From IMG/VR virus record IMGVR_UViG_3300032160_000299, positions 1 through 23,614 of that record: a stretch of DNA of 23,614 nucleotides. The stretch is one strand, 5' to 3'. Made by a program: the position numbers and the translations under genes. Below, in pieces: positions 4,398 to 17,072 of the stretch; position 1 is the first letter of the stretch; the number at the start of each line of letters is the position of its first letter. The notes under the pieces were generated by a model. The model made no database searches, was not told the DNA's origin, and saw only the letters and a program-made list of their open reading frames with translations. This DNA is from a virus.

Positions 4398-4808
4398 ATG
4401 CCACTCTACGGAAGCCAAGCCACTACCAACTCTCCCCTGCAGGCGGTCCGCGACGACCAGGTCGTGCCGGTCACTTTCTTTAGTGCCGAGACGCCCGCCG
4501 CCGGCCAAGCCTCGATCGCGGCCGGGTTGATGCCGGCAACGCCCGACGGACAACTGGGTCCGGTGGCCTTTCGTTTCTCCTGCCCGCTCGGGATCGGCGC
4601 TGGCGTGTTCCAGATCCAGGACGCCGACGTCGACGCCGCGGGCGAATACGACTCAATCTCCTTCGGCGGCGCCTCTCCCGGCACGGTGGCCTCGGCCAAT
4701 ATGAACGCCAGCGGGGTGGCGCGCGTCGAACTTATCCTGCGCGCGCGTTTTGTCCGAATCCTTTGCGTGACGGCGCCCTCAAACCCGGTCACGGTCACCG
4801 CAGTCTAA
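4398..4808 (+). CDS. Hypothetical small structural-type protein
   Basis: A 136-residue protein from the ATG at 4398, 14 bases after the preceding stop. It begins MPLYGSQATTN, and the body is a run of short beta-like segments (GPVAFRFSCPLGIGAGVFQIQDADVD). The last strands, ARVELILRARFVRILCV, resemble small phage decoration or fibre-associated proteins. No specific family is recognised. Its stop overlaps the next start by one base (TAATG). An upstream ATG at 4323 lies inside the fibre gene and is not needed. Confidence 0.6.
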   Translation: MPLYGSQATTNSPLQAVRDDQVVPVTFFSAETPAAGQASIAAGLMPATPDGQLGPVAFRFSCPLGIGAGVFQIQDADVDAAGEYDSISFGGASPGTVASANMNASGVARVELILRARFVRILCVTAPSNPVTVTAV

Positions 4809-5242
4809 TGGAACGGGTCTTCGTCAGAATCGCGCCCGAAGAGCAGGACCAGGCGATCTTCTTTTCGCTCTCGACGCCCGACGGAGATCTACTTGATCGC
4901 GATGTTTTCGAGCATCAATCGACGTTTTTGCTGGCCGCCATGAAGCCCGATCGCGACGGGGCGATTGCTTATCTTCCGGTGCAGCAGCCGCTCATGCTGG
5001 AGAACCTGATCTTCCGATCAGGCCTCACCGATCGCGAGCGCGCGGCCGCGATCTCGCGCCTAGTGGAAGCAGCAGCTGGTGAAGCCTGGCGGCGTGACGC
5101 CGGCGAGCTCTACTTCCTCTGCCGGCACCCGGAGACCTGCGCCTTCGCCGAGCGCCATCTCTTCGAGCGCATCGACGGCGAGGAGTCGCGCCTCAAGCTC
5201 AAGGTGTATCGCCTGAATTTGCGCGAAACGTTTGGAACCTAA
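4808..5242 (+). CDS. Hypothetical protein, possible acetyltransferase-like fold
   Basis: A 144-residue protein starting in the previous stop (TAATG) and ending in the next start (TAATG at 5240-5244). The opening MERVFVRIAPEEQDQA, the central helical RERAAAISRLVEAAAGEAWRR and the end HLFERIDGEESRLKLKVYRL give an alternating strand/helix pattern. It is vaguely reminiscent of the GNAT-like domains seen in some phage proteins, but no acetyl-CoA motif is visible. It sits directly upstream of the terminase genes. Treat the fold suggestion as weak. Confidence 0.6.
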   Translation: MERVFVRIAPEEQDQAIFFSLSTPDGDLLDRDVFEHQSTFLLAAMKPDRDGAIAYLPVQQPLMLENLIFRSGLTDRERAAAISRLVEAAAGEAWRRDAGELYFLCRHPETCAFAERHLFERIDGEESRLKLKVYRLNLRETFGT

Positions 5243-5739
5243 TGCCCCAGGGACGAGGCGGCGATCGCAGGAGACAAGCCGCGGCCAGCGGCAACAAGGT
5301 CGGCCGGCCGCCGAAACCGCAGATCCCGCTGCGCGCCGACAAAGGCATCGCGACCACCGTGCTCGCGATGGACGGGCCGCCGGTCCACATCCGGACCTGC
5401 GAGTGCGAAACCTGCCGCGGCAAGAAGTGTGAATGCCAACACCTCAAAAGCGACAAGGAAGGCGGGGCTGGAATCACGATCGAATGCGCGCACTGCCGCA
5501 CCCGCGCCGATCATGCCATCTGCCGCTGCGAAGTTTGCGCCTGGTGGGTGCACCTGGCGGCGCGCGACCAGCGGGTGAGCTTTGAGGCGCGCAAATATCT
5601 GACCGACCGACGCGATGGCAAGCCGGCACAGGGCGTTTTCATGGGCGACACGCGAGAGTCGGCGAGAGAGTTAGACTTTGGCGACCTCCCCGAGCTTATT
5701 GCCCCCGGTGAGCCTCTCGCGGCTGGTAAGCCCAATTGA
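5242..5739 (+). CDS. Cys-rich protein in the small-terminase position
   Basis: A 165-residue protein immediately upstream of, and overlapping, the large terminase gene, where phages usually encode the small terminase. The N-terminus is basic (RGGDRRRQAAASGNKVGRPPKP). The middle holds three cysteine clusters (Cys53, 55, 58, 63, 65; Cys82, 85; Cys94, 96, 99), likely metal-binding. A short segment YLTDRRDGKPAQ (119-130) resembles the 'LxDRxxGKPxQ' ending seen in several small-terminase-like phage proteins. I infer DNA recognition for packaging. The zinc-rich core is unusual for that role, so another DNA-binding function is possible. Confidence 0.55.
   Translation: MPQGRGGDRRRQAAASGNKVGRPPKPQIPLRADKGIATTVLAMDGPPVHIRTCECETCRGKKCECQHLKSDKEGGAGITIECAHCRTRADHAICRCEVCAWWVHLAARDQRVSFEARKYLTDRRDGKPAQGVFMGDTRESARELDFGDLPELIAPGEPLAAGKPN
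5664..5670 (+). promoter_or_regulatory. Ribosome binding site for terL
   Basis: GAGAGAG lies 7 bases before the TTG at 5678, inside the upstream gene. The alternative GTG at 5708 has no purine-rich tract before it, so TTG is preferred. Confidence 0.45.
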
Positions 5740-7186
5740 ACCGCAATGGGAATTTCTTCGGCAGATCACCAATTATGATTTCGTTCTCTACGAAGGCGAA
5801 GGCGGCGCCGGCAAAAGCTACATCCTGCGCTGGTGGCTGGTTCTCTTCCTGGTCGCCTGCTACCAGAAACTCGGCCTGCGCGGGGTTCGCGTTGGCATCT
5901 TCTGCGAAACCTTCAAGACGCTCCAGGACCGCCAGGTCTCCCGAATGCGCGCCGAGTTTCCCCGCGGGCTCGGCACCTTTCGCAGTGATCCCGCCCTCGA
6001 CTTCGTTCTCCGCGATGAGTACGGCGGCGGCCATCTTTGCATTCGTAACCTGGCCAAGCCCGACGAGTATTCCTCGGCCGAATTCGCGGCCATCGCGGTC
6101 GATGAGCTCACCAAAAACCCGCTGTCGGTTTTCAACGATCTGCGCTGGCGCCTCCGCTGGCCAGGAATTGCGCGGCCGAAATTCGGCGCCGCGACCAACC
6201 CCGGCGGCAAAGGGCACGCCTGGGTCAAGAAGTACTGGATCAAAAAAGAATTCCCCGCGGAGATGCGGCCGATCGCGGACCAGTTCGTTCGGGTGCACGC
6301 CAAGACCACGGACAACACCAAACTCGCGCCTGGCTACAGCAAAAGCCTCAAGACGTTGCCCCCAGAGATGGCTGGCCGCGTCGCCTACGGCAACTGGGAC
6401 ATCTACACCGGGCAATATTTCCCGCGGTTCAACGCCGATTCGACGATTGTCCCTTGTCACGTCATTCCCCACGCCGAGGCGATGGCCAAGATCCAGCCCT
6501 GGCACGCGCGCACGCTTTCGGGCGACTGGGGCTTCGATCACCCACATACTTTCCACTGGCACGCCAAGGACGAAAGAAATTGCGTAATTACCTATCGCGA
6601 GATCTGGGGCCGCGGAGTTGGCGAAGCGGAAGTCGGGCGGCAACTGACGGCCGCCGAGGCCCAGGATTTCAAATTCGCCCAGCTGAAAAACTTCGTGTTC
6701 TCCTGGGATGCCGGCAAACTTTCGCCGCGGGCCAGCAAGCGGCAGCCGAAGTCGATCTCCGATCTAGTGGCTGCGGCGCTCGGCCCACGCATCCCCAAGC
6801 CTCACCCCTGCGATTCCTCGCCCGGCGTGCGGCTGATTCGCGCCCGGCTGATGTCGCAGGTCATCGAAGCCGGCACCTGGCTGATCTCGGACGCCTGCCC
6901 GAAACTGATCGCCGCCATCCCCGAAATGATCCGCGACGAAAACGACCCCGAGCAGATGGCGAAAATGGACTGGAACGAAGCCACCACCGGCGACGATCCT
7001 GTCGACTCCGCCGGCATGGGCCTGCAGTGGATGATCGGCAGCGTCGCCAAACCCGACGAGGTCTCGCTCGAAGAGAAATTCCACCAGGTGCGGCAGCGCT
7101 TCGCGGCGCGGGTCGAGCCGGCCAAGCCAGGCGAAGACTGGTTCGCGAAGTTTGGCGGCCGTAAAGCCGTAAAGAGAGGGCGATGA
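5678..7186 (+). CDS. terL: Terminase large subunit (packaging ATPase/nuclease)
   Basis: A 502-residue protein of normal family length. The ATPase domain shows Walker A GEGGAGKS (40-47), Walker B AIAVDE (138-143, Asp142-Glu143) and a coupling motif GAATNPGG (170-177). The C-terminal RNase H-like nuclease shows candidate metal-binding aspartates in SGDWGFDHP (Asp283), FSWDAG (Asp344) and GDDPVDSAGMGLQW (Asp443). It would dock on the portal at 11770-14181 and drive DNA into the prohead, then cut it. The start is uncertain: TTG 5678 follows a GAGAGAG tract but overlaps the upstream gene by 62 bases, and GTG 5708 would shorten it by 10 residues. Function does not depend on this choice. Confidence 0.93.
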   Translation: MATSPSLLPPVSLSRLVSPIEPQWEFLRQITNYDFVLYEGEGGAGKSYILRWWLVLFLVACYQKLGLRGVRVGIFCETFKTLQDRQVSRMRAEFPRGLGTFRSDPALDFVLRDEYGGGHLCIRNLAKPDEYSSAEFAAIAVDELTKNPLSVFNDLRWRLRWPGIARPKFGAATNPGGKGHAWVKKYWIKKEFPAEMRPIADQFVRVHAKTTDNTKLAPGYSKSLKTLPPEMAGRVAYGNWDIYTGQYFPRFNADSTIVPCHVIPHAEAMAKIQPWHARTLSGDWGFDHPHTFHWHAKDERNCVITYREIWGRGVGEAEVGRQLTAAEAQDFKFAQLKNFVFSWDAGKLSPRASKRQPKSISDLVAAALGPRIPKPHPCDSSPGVRLIRARLMSQVIEAGTWLISDACPKLIAAIPEMIRDENDPEQMAKMDWNEATTGDDPVDSAGMGLQWMIGSVAKPDEVSLEEKFHQVRQRFAARVEPAKPGEDWFAKFGGRKAVKRGR

Positions 7187-7597: not shown

Positions 7598-7827
7598 GTA
7601 ACGTTCGCGTGATGTCGCCGACAGGCGAGCTCGGCACCATCCCGGCGGAGAACCTGGCGGAAGCAGTGAAAGCCGGGGCGCGGGTGATGACGGCCGACGA
7701 TATGCGGGAACTTCGGCAAGAGATTTTCATGCAGCACGCAGTTTTCAAAGACGAGCACCAGCGATCGCGGAAACGCAAGCGGCGTTCGATCCTGACTAGT
7801 GGCCGCGTCAGGCGCGGACGGCGATGA
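7594..7827 (+). CDS. Small phage protein with a GxIPxxxLxxAxxxGA motif
   Basis: A 77-residue protein with a GTG start overlapping the previous stop. The N-terminal half contains SPTGELGTIPAENLAEAVKA followed by GARVM. From memory, small proteins with a 'PxGxxGxIP...L..A...GA' pattern occur in phage head-gene neighbourhoods; function unknown. The C-terminus is highly basic (RSRKRKRRS, SGRVRRGRR), suggesting nucleic-acid or portal contact. The stop overlaps the next ATG (ATGA at 7824-7827). Confidence 0.6.
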   Translation: MSNVRVMSPTGELGTIPAENLAEAVKAGARVMTADDMRELRQEIFMQHAVFKDEHQRSRKRKRRSILTSGRVRRGRR

Positions 7828-8267
7828 CGGCAGTGATCTGGTTTCTTGCGGGGCTGCTCGTCGCCATCCTGGGCGTCGGGTGGTTCGCCTTCGAGCGCCA
7901 GCGCGCGGTCTTTGAGCAGCTGGTCGAGGAAGTCAAGAACGATCGCGATGGCGCTTACCAGGAGATGCGCGTCTATCGCGGGCTGCTCTTCCCTGTGGTG
8001 AGAATGGCGGAAGAGGGAAAAAGTGTTGCAGGTTCGACTCCTGCCTCGCCGGTGCCCCTGGCGAGTAGCTCAATGGTAGAGCCTGCGGCCGGTCAAAAAG
8101 CCGGCCGGAGTTCAGGGCGTGCGCGGCCGCGTCAGCGCGTACCGTTCCGGCAGTTTTTCAATATGGCGCGCCGCGAGACGAACACGCCCCAGAAAAAGAC
8201 CGACGCCCTGGCCAGCGCGCTCGAATTAGCAACTCAATCCAAGGAGAAAAATTCCAATGGCAACTAG
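7824..8267 (+). CDS. One-helix membrane protein; 3' half overlaid by RNA-like element
   Basis: The frame gives 147 residues. Residues 4-22 are a transmembrane helix (VIWFLAGLLVAILGVGWFA). Residues 23-65 are charged and helical (ERQRAVFEQLVEEVKNDRDG), resembling small holin- or spanin-like phage membrane proteins. From about residue 66 the character changes: AGSTPAS and SSSMVEP are simply the reading of a tRNA T arm and D arm, and a basic Arg-rich stretch follows. The natural gene may once have ended near 8020, with the later frame open by chance. The last 34 residues from an internal Met at 8163 (MARRETNTPQKKT) could be a separate small product, but no ribosome binding site precedes it. Confidence 0.5.
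   Translation: MTAVIWFLAGLLVAILGVGWFAFERQRAVFEQLVEEVKNDRDGAYQEMRVYRGLLFPVVRMAEEGKSVAGSTPASPVPLASSSMVEPAAGQKAGRSSGRARPRQRVPFRQFFNMARRETNTPQKKTDALASALELATQSKEKNSNGN
8028..8107 (+). ncRNA. Circularly permuted tRNA-like RNA (T arm, acceptor, D arm, hairpin)
   Basis: The T arm comes first: 8028-8032 (GCAGG) pairs with 8040-8044 (CCTGC) around the canonical loop TTCGACT. Next, 8045-8051 (CTCGCCG) pairs with 8059-8065 (TGGCGAG) as a 7-base-pair acceptor stem (six Watson-Crick pairs and one G-U), closed by GTGCCCC (8052-8058). TA (8066-8067) occupies tRNA positions 8-9. A perfect D arm follows: GCTC/GAGC around AATGGTA (8068-8082), with the expected A14, G18-G19 and A21. Last comes a 7-base-pair GC hairpin (8086-8107) with an 8-base loop TCAAAAAG. 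This is tRNA order permuted with its ends in the variable region. The last hairpin is not a standard 7-base anticodon loop and no 3' CCA is encoded, so decoding is doubtful. Remnants of two tandem tRNAs are the main alternative. Confidence 0.7.
8104..8158 (+). terminator. Terminator-like hairpin after the tRNA-like element
   Basis: GCCGGA (8104-8109) pairs with TCCGGC (8146-8151), enclosing a second imperfect helix (GCGC 8121-8124 with GCGC 8135-8138, plus flanking pairs). TTTTT follows at 8154-8158. It partly competes with the preceding GC hairpin for bases 8104-8107, so the two could be alternative folds. The enclosed loop is long for a classical Rho-independent terminator. Confidence 0.4.
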
Positions 8268-8919
8268 CACTCCAGTTCCAACGCAGACTAAGCCGGCGCC
8301 CGTCGTCATTCCCGATGTGGTGCTGTTCAAAGCCTTCGGCCGCGTGCTTCCCGCTCTGGTCCTGGCACATCGCTTCGGCGAAGTGTCCCACCTGGGATCA
8401 CACGGCGAGCCGCTGCTCACCCTGGCCGTCATTGACCCGGCCCGCGAAAGCGGACTCGACAAGGACAAGGACGGAAACTTCGTCTATCCTGTCGGCCGCA
8501 TCCCGCAGGTTTTCACCGAGCACGACGTGGTCCACGTCTCGCACCTTTTCTCGGACGAATTCAAAAAGAAGAAAGCGATCCAGTCGCCGGCCGACGTCGC
8601 CGCCCAACGCGGCCACGGCGAATGGTCAGAATTCGTCGGTGATAATGACGAGCTGGTGGATCGCCTGCGCCGCAACCTGGGCGAAGCCACGGCTGAGGCG
8701 CTCAAGCAGAGCGATCAGTCGAACCGGCAGCGCGCCCGCGCGGAACTCGCCGAGTTCAAGCTGGCCGACGCCAACAACCAGATCGACAAGCAGGGCAAGA
8801 TCATCGCGAAGCTGCAGTCGGATACGATCGCGGCCGCTATGACGAAGCCGGCGGCATTCCCTGGCGCAACTGCTACGGAAGGCCAAAGCGCCTCAGGCAG
8901 CGAAGCCCCGAAGCAGTAG
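8257..8919 (+). CDS. Unassigned phage protein with C-terminal coiled coil
   Basis: A 220-residue protein with a strong ribosome binding site (AAGGAG, 8241-8246). The N-terminal ~140 residues are a mixed alpha/beta region with a Pro-rich start and segments such as VLFKAFGRVLPALVLAHRFG and PLLTLAVIDPARESG. Residues about 145-195 (DELVDRLRRNLGEATAEALK and following) are strongly helical and coiled-coil-like. The tail is Ala/Ser-rich and probably disordered. I do not recognise the family. Its location among packaging and head genes suggests a virion or assembly role. The start lies just inside the end of the upstream frame. Confidence 0.75.
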   Translation: MATSTPVPTQTKPAPVVIPDVVLFKAFGRVLPALVLAHRFGEVSHLGSHGEPLLTLAVIDPARESGLDKDKDGNFVYPVGRIPQVFTEHDVVHVSHLFSDEFKKKKAIQSPADVAAQRGHGEWSEFVGDNDELVDRLRRNLGEATAEALKQSDQSNRQRARAELAEFKLADANNQIDKQGKIIAKLQSDTIAAAMTKPAAFPGATATEGQSASGSEAPKQ

Positions 8920-15749: not shown

Positions 15750-17072
15750 ATGTTTTCTATTTTTCAGTTCCTGCTCCTCTTCTGGATCCAGATCTTCCTG
15801 AACGGGATCGCCTGCTTTGCGGCCGGCAACAACGCGCAAACCGTCGCCTCGCAGCTCGAAGCCTTCATCCGCAAAGTCACGGACGGAATGCAGCGCGACT
15901 CGATGCTGTTCGACAAGATCGACAACCGCCCCACAGAAACCATGAGCTCGCGCGTTCTCTGGTGGACGCTCGATCTCGTGCCTGGCACTCTCACCCGCCA
16001 GGTCGATCCGGACGGCGGAAGCGCCGGCCGCGGCGCCGCCATCACCCAGGCGCGCGCCCAAGTGCAGGCCGCATTTTTCCTGGCTTGCACCGAAATGACC
16101 GACCTCGCGATGGCGGCCACGGACAACTCCAAGAAGTCCGTCGCTGACTACAAAAAGCGCAACCTGGAAAAGCAGATCTCGCAGTTCCGCAACCTCTGCG
16201 AGTCGCTGCTGAATTCCGATCTCAACGCTGCCGGCATCCTCGACACCATCACGTCGATCACGGGCAACGCGATCGGAGTGAACAACGCCAACAAATTCCA
16301 GGGCAACAAGGTCTACCAGGTGCTGCCCGCGGTGGGCCAGGCCTCGCTCGGCCCGATCACGACGCTCAATATCGACGTCAACGCCAAGACGCTCTACGTC
16401 ACAGGCGCCCTGCCGCCGAACATCGCCGTCGGCAACGTGCTCGCGGTGGACGGCTCGCCCGGCATTGTCAACTCGTCGCTGGGCTCGCTGCGTTCCAATC
16501 ACTTGGACTCGAACACCGGCAGCTGGAACAACCTGCCGCGCGGCAGCTTTCCCGGCCAACTGAAGACCCCGCACCTGGCGATGAACAATTTCGCCATTTC
16601 CCCGTCGGCGGTCGATCTTGGCCTGGTCTATCTGCGGCGCGTGCTGCCGGAGGACGAGGGCGAAGCGCTGGACCTGCTCATGCACATGGGCTACGACCAG
16701 CAGCAATCGCTCTCGAACTACGCCTACCTGGCTAACCCCACGATCATCTGGAACGAAGCCAAGGGTGATCGCAACATCGACATGATGAAGAAAATGGCCG
16801 CGGCCACCATGTCCGGCTACAAGAAACTCGTGTCGAAGCTGGCCACCCCTGGCGTGATCGACGCCCTGGCGATTGATCGCTGGTTCCGCGGCGAACTGCA
16901 GCCCGTCGGTCCGCTGACCCGCAACGGACAGACCGAATTCCAGACTTACGGCGATGATGGCGGTCTCGACTTCTCCATCATCGAGTACATCTGGGGCGGC
17001 TTCCAGGTCTGCATGGAGCAGCCGAAGTTCGGGCTCTACTATGACGGCTGCGCTTTGCCGTCCGGCACCTAA
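15750..17072 (+). CDS. Major capsid protein (putative)
   Basis: A 440-residue protein downstream of portal and scaffold and upstream of a co-chaperonin gene. After an unusual hydrophobic N-terminus (residues 2-25, FSIFQFLLLFWIQIFLNG) comes NAQTVASQLEAFIRKVTDGM, typical of an N-arm helix. Further segments fit a HK97-fold coat: charged SVADYKKRNLEKQISQFRNL as the long spine-helix region, VGNVLAVDGSPGIVNSS as a beta-rich axial part, YDQQQSLSNYAYLANP and MSGYKKLVSKLATPG, and a strand-rich C-terminus (FQTYGDDGGLDFSIIEYIW). It is the only candidate of correct size and place. The hydrophobic N-terminus lacks basic residues, so it is not a classical signal peptide. It might be a cleaved propeptide, but no protease gene is seen here. 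Confidence 0.75.
   Translation: MFSIFQFLLLFWIQIFLNGIACFAAGNNAQTVASQLEAFIRKVTDGMQRDSMLFDKIDNRPTETMSSRVLWWTLDLVPGTLTRQVDPDGGSAGRGAAITQARAQVQAAFFLACTEMTDLAMAATDNSKKSVADYKKRNLEKQISQFRNLCESLLNSDLNAAGILDTITSITGNAIGVNNANKFQGNKVYQVLPAVGQASLGPITTLNIDVNAKTLYVTGALPPNIAVGNVLAVDGSPGIVNSSLGSLRSNHLDSNTGSWNNLPRGSFPGQLKTPHLAMNNFAISPSAVDLGLVYLRRVLPEDEGEALDLLMHMGYDQQQSLSNYAYLANPTIIWNEAKGDRNIDMMKKMAAATMSGYKKLVSKLATPGVIDALAIDRWFRGELQPVGPLTRNGQTEFQTYGDDGGLDFSIIEYIWGGFQVCMEQPKFGLYYDGCALPSGT

Follow-up and report, generated by a model that had tools for sequence, protein, structure and literature searches.

We identified a YrlA-type tRNA-like module (positions 8022-8084, plus strand) that lies in frame inside a small gene for a putative membrane protein (7824-8267, plus strand) in a stretch of viral DNA of 23,614 nucleotides, which is referred to here as the window. 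In the reading that we prefer, with a probability of roughly 0.7, the tRNA-like module of a YrlA RNA was captured into this gene, where it is most likely tolerated and not used. What appeared to be a novel permuted tRNA is identified here with the tRNA-like domain found in Y RNAs. The permuted order itself was already known; new here are the unusual place of a YrlA-type module and its occurrence without the usual outer stem.

The module and the hairpin that follows it lie at 8022-8084 and 8086-8107 of the plus strand. A T-arm mimic is present at 8028-8044, in which a perfectly paired stem of five base pairs (GCAGG, 8028-8032, with CCTGC, 8040-8044) closes the loop TTCGACT (8033-8039), as read directly from the sequence and as obtained by folding. 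It is followed by an acceptor-stem mimic (8045-8065) whose strands CTCGCCG (8045-8051) and TGGCGAG (8059-8065) form seven of seven pairs across a connector of seven bases (GTGCCCC, 8052-8058), the terminal pair being U.G. The dinucleotide TA (8066-8067) separates the second acceptor strand from a D-arm mimic at 8068-8082, which consists of a perfect stem (GCTC, 8068-8071, with GAGC, 8079-8082) and the loop AATGGTA; this arm was compared with the YrlA consensus GUAGCUCA..GGUAGAGC in the Rfam model alignment. The last part is a GC-rich hairpin (CGGCCGGT-CAAAAA-GCCGGCCG, 8086-8107) that folds into a stem of eight base pairs with a loop of six nucleotides. Reading of the sequence revealed no CCA after the acceptor strand, and no anticodon arm in the flanks, neither ahead of the T arm nor behind the D arm. 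The anatomical details of the preliminary description proved accurate throughout, including the order T, acceptor, D and the statement that no CCA is encoded. When folded in isolation, the 92 nucleotides from 8022 to 8113 adopt the described arms with a z-score of -3.9, and none of 200 shuffled sequences folded as well. In longer contexts a rival fold is nearly as stable (-61.8 kcal/mol for the free fold of 7985-8125 versus -60.8 kcal/mol with the module forced). A search with the consensus pattern of the T and D arms, in which up to three mismatches were allowed, gave one match in the window, without mismatches, compared to 0.01 per shuffled window.

A cmscan search at permissive thresholds matched positions 8022-8084 (plus strand) to RF02553 (YrlA, Y RNA-like) with 42.1 bits and an E-value of 2.4e-8. 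The matched part of the model (positions 25-83) is exactly the T-acceptor-D tRNA-like module; the match is partial and stays below the gathering score of 69 bits, at which no Rfam family was found in the window. YrlA RNAs are modular: the 5' and 3' ends pair into a stem to which Rsr, the orthologue of Ro60, binds, and a second domain is similar to tRNA in its D, T and acceptor arms (PMC8394870, section 3.3; PMC7790460). This tRNA-like domain is the site of modification by DusA and TruB and of PNPase binding (PMC8394870). Because the YrlA domain already has the order T-acceptor-D, the permuted order in the window, supported by both the RF02553 match and the reading of the sequence, represents a design already familiar from this RNA class. 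Judged by its sequence, the element is the tRNA-mimicking part of a YrlA-class Y RNA and not a member of an undescribed class of permuted tRNAs. The preliminary description knew of no phage family of this kind, a statement which has to be corrected, since T-acceptor-D defines the YrlA domain (RF02553; PMC8394870) and YrlA in phages had been mentioned in print (PMC7765460). Its guess of a tRNA mimic without a decoding role is supported.

The ends of the RF02553 model (positions 1-24 and 84-114), which form the outer stem that binds Ro60/Rsr, are unmatched in the window. The place of the 3' strand of this stem is occupied by the GC-rich hairpin, which is not matched by RF02553 either. The partition function gave 0.0 expected pairs between the two flanks in a test of low power, in which the bacterial controls reached 7-25 in eight of nine cases and 0.4 in the other; both this test and the RNAduplex test for an outer stem discriminate weakly, as most bacterial copies did not exceed their own shuffles. 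The motif UUGUCG, found near the 3' end of several bacterial YrlA copies, is absent from 8083-8200 on the plus strand, and PF05731 (TROVE/Ro60) had no match in the 23.6-kb window; as the contig is incomplete, such a gene may lie outside it. Because the Ro60 stem is missing, a classical Ro60-PNPase particle should not be expected from this module. In the preferred reading, the outer stem was either lost or never transferred.

The module is located entirely within an open reading frame of 444 nucleotides (7824-8267), which was overlooked in the preliminary description and encodes a protein of 147 amino acids with a hydrophobic N-terminal segment. Read in frame, the module gives a Ser/Pro/Ala-rich linker (KSVAGSTPASPVPLASSSMVEPAAG). 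The gene is situated in a packaging context, downstream of the gene for the terminase large subunit [5678-7186, plus strand (PHROG 979, E = 6e-10; PF03237, E = 1.2e-5)]. The plus strand of the window also encodes a GroES-like co-chaperonin of the phage (17385-17939; PHROG 3188, E = 3e-12) and, at the left end, a serine recombinase/DNA invertase (245-1003; PF00239, E = 8e-43) that probably starts further inside the frame, around residue 68.

A syntenic relative of the window [IMGVR_UViG_3300020583_000021 (L004, the same contig as L159)] has a terminase that is 57% identical and a counterpart, 87% identical, of the 440-amino acid protein encoded at 15750-17072. The orthologue of the module-containing gene is found between the same neighbours as a continuous frame of 136 amino acids without the module (L004:6940-7350). 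In a tblastn search, the reading frame 7824-8267 aligned with L004:6937-7296 at 36% identity (E = 1e-24); both ends of the gene align and the middle differs, such that positions 8019-8123 (plus strand), filled by the module, have no clear counterpart in L004. Between the conserved AE[EN]G (AENG in L004) and RPR there are 35 codons in the window versus 17 in L004. The gene also has weaker, more distant relatives in L163, L164 and L175, which likewise lack the module, and Rfam searches and the structural scan identified no YrlA-like module in the relatives from the phage group (L002-L004 and L159-L184). A module position conserved across the phage group was rejected on this basis. Searches with the whole 444-nucleotide gene against deposited phages returned short matches only, many of them to tRNA genes, and no related loci were found via the open reading frame at 8257-8919. 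Since the orthologue and the relatives searched lack the module, it was either gained in the lineage of the window or lost repeatedly elsewhere; most likely, a YrlA module was captured in this lineage alone, within a protein linker that tolerates changes in length. The window provides an example of a YrlA module embedded in frame in a protein gene for which a relative has a module-free orthologue.

We infer a capture event, probably a recombination, in which part of a YrlA gene entered the membrane-protein gene at a linker of variable length, the Ro60-binding stem having been lost or left behind. The module would be transcribed within the late mRNA and could adopt there the fold of a tRNA mimic with the order T-acceptor-D; translation would continue through it as part of the linker. 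As the linker accepts a Ser/Pro/Ala-rich stretch, the captured piece is most likely tolerated, and tRNA-binding enzymes (TruB, Dus, PNPase) would recognise it incidentally at best. Against a capture speak the partial, sub-cut-off match to RF02553, the lack of an outer stem and the lack of a TROVE gene in the fragment. The three intact arms suggest a recent capture but equally suggest selection for the fold.

Alternatively, the module could be a functional cis-acting or processed RNA that recruits RNase P, PNPase or tRNA-modifying enzymes, or that is excised as a tRNA-mimicking small RNA, in which case the DNA would be dual-coding. We consider this unlikely. All arms are intact and the isolated 92 nucleotides fold much better than their shuffles, and DusA and TruB act on YrlA, which also tethers PNPase (PMC8394870), but the fold competes with one of nearly equal energy in longer contexts and the module is absent from all searched relatives of the phage group, which argues against its conservation as a regulator of the gene. 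Slightly less likely still is that a dual-coding tRNA mimic of the Y RNA type, devoid of the Ro60 stem, is maintained in the late mRNA, either to attract tRNA-processing or tRNA-modifying enzymes or PNPase and so control the mRNA, or to be released as a decoy RNA. A functional RNA here would mean that a tRNA mimic acts from inside a coding sequence.

Neighbouring tRNA genes also place a T arm ahead of a D arm, and tandem tRNA genes therefore served as the control. The module could represent the 3' half and the 5' half of identical tandem tRNA genes carried into the gene, the acceptor pairing being a consequence of their shared acceptor stem. Viral contigs were scanned for the arm pattern with the acceptor unconstrained, and the resulting matches (at least 145, window included) were sorted by ARAGORN tRNA calls. 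Among the matches listed, six or seven of the seven acceptor pairs were present in 13 of the 18 viral matches that overlap no tRNA gene; among those listed with two tRNA genes, 7 of 110 reached six pairs and none reached seven, the number found in the window. Viral tandem tRNAs with partly matching acceptors thus exist, as do viral tRNAs with the same half sequences, and the T and D arms of the window module are of tRNA grade. An origin from such a pair would nevertheless require that the spacer measured about six nucleotides and lacked CCA, and that the acceptors of the two copies were fully complementary. In addition, the flanks of the module show no anticodon arms, and both its connector length (7) and its arrangement equal those of bacterial YrlA modules. 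We regard this origin as unlikely.

For a covariation analysis, the 18 tRNA-free viral matches among those listed were aligned with the window, giving 19 modules that were unselected for pairing. In this alignment 91.7% of the cells pair versus 57.5% after shuffling, and 85 cells show changes on both sides versus 28. The covariation score was 0.918 compared to 0.256 for shuffled alignments, indicating that the acceptor and T stems covary strongly in the viral modules. Compensatory changes across the connector, which had been proposed as a check on the acceptor stem, were found for all seven acceptor pairs in the 19 modules. RF02553 matched six of the six viral loci tested, with 33-39 bits. The acceptor pairing, the covariation and these matches indicate that YrlA-type modules, that of the window included, are widespread in viral contigs, where they are common at scores below the Rfam cut-off.

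YrlA-like modules, often near tRNA genes, were observed in ten viral records (L020, L022, L026, L048, L067, L073, L081, L087, L118, and L122), and those tested scored far under the Rfam cut-off. These ten records, which are up to 128 kb long, gave no match for a TROVE (Ro60) gene. In L067, a GOLLD RNA (5852-6576; 207 bits) lies just upstream of the YrlA match and several tRNAs. L048 has a full-length tmRNA match (4738-5051; 112 bits) together with tRNAs and the YrlA match, and another tmRNA match is present in L022. L081 was considered as a second case of a module inside a gene and was rejected: its long open frames have no further support, tRNA remains lie around the module and a UUGUCG motif follows it, and we take it as an ordinary intergenic YrlA. 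RF02553 at E ≤ 0.001 also gave matches below the cut-off in the control genomes of E. coli and B. subtilis. These are probably tandem tRNA genes, and weak matches to the model therefore need to be checked for acceptor pairing.

The acceptor sequence of the window (CTCGCC ... GGCGAGTAGCTCA) was found as a pattern in three bacterial genomes, in the permuted order and with no tRNA gene nearby. One of these, the acidobacterium Acanthopleuribacter pedis, has several YrlA matches, some of which are about 1 kb from a TROVE (Ro60-like) match. Six YrlA matches form two clusters on contigs C9 and C46 of this genome (G001; L128 and L133), and a weak TROVE match lies roughly 1 kb from one of the clusters. 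Donor searches with patterns combining either the T arm and the acceptor or the acceptor and the D arm led for the most part to normal tRNA genes of viral contigs; the combined module was in no case retrieved, and no close sequence relative of the window module was found in the pattern searches.

It is highly improbable that the window represents a new phage class of true circularly permuted tRNA genes in which 8086-8107 would serve as the anticodon arm: the order of the arms is as in permuted tRNA genes, but T-acceptor-D is also the order of the known YrlA module, the hairpin has a six-nucleotide loop (CAAAAA) on its eight-base-pair stem and not an anticodon-like loop of seven nucleotides, no CCA is present, ARAGORN detected neither tRNA nor tmRNA in the window, and no homologue with this hairpin was found. 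The hairpin, placed at the anticodon position in the preliminary description, is not supported as an anticodon arm and corresponds in place to the unmatched Ro-stem side of the YrlA model, and the proposal of a true permuted tRNA gene or a circular RNA received no support. A decoding tRNA or tmRNA was rejected on the negative results of ARAGORN and of Rfam at gathering score.

Circularly permuted tRNA genes are known from red algae and archaea. The window module shares their permuted arm order and differs from them in having no anticodon arm with a seven-nucleotide loop, so that the set of four arms is incomplete, and in showing no sign of a joined decoding tRNA. It resembles the permuted two-piece tmRNA (RF04321) in that the D arm comes after the T arm and the acceptor in gene order; unlike this tmRNA, the module has no CCA, no tag frame or pseudoknots were seen, and Rfam and ARAGORN gave no tmRNA match. 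In comparison with YrlA RNA (RF02553), the module is devoid of the outer Ro60-binding stem, lies inside a coding gene, scores under the Rfam cut-off and has no Ro60 match beside it within the 23.6-kb fragment, but it has in common with this RNA the T arm, the acceptor stem with its short connector loop, the TA and the D arm, all in the same order, as well as the consensus loops GGUUCGA and GUAGCUCA..GGUAGAGC.
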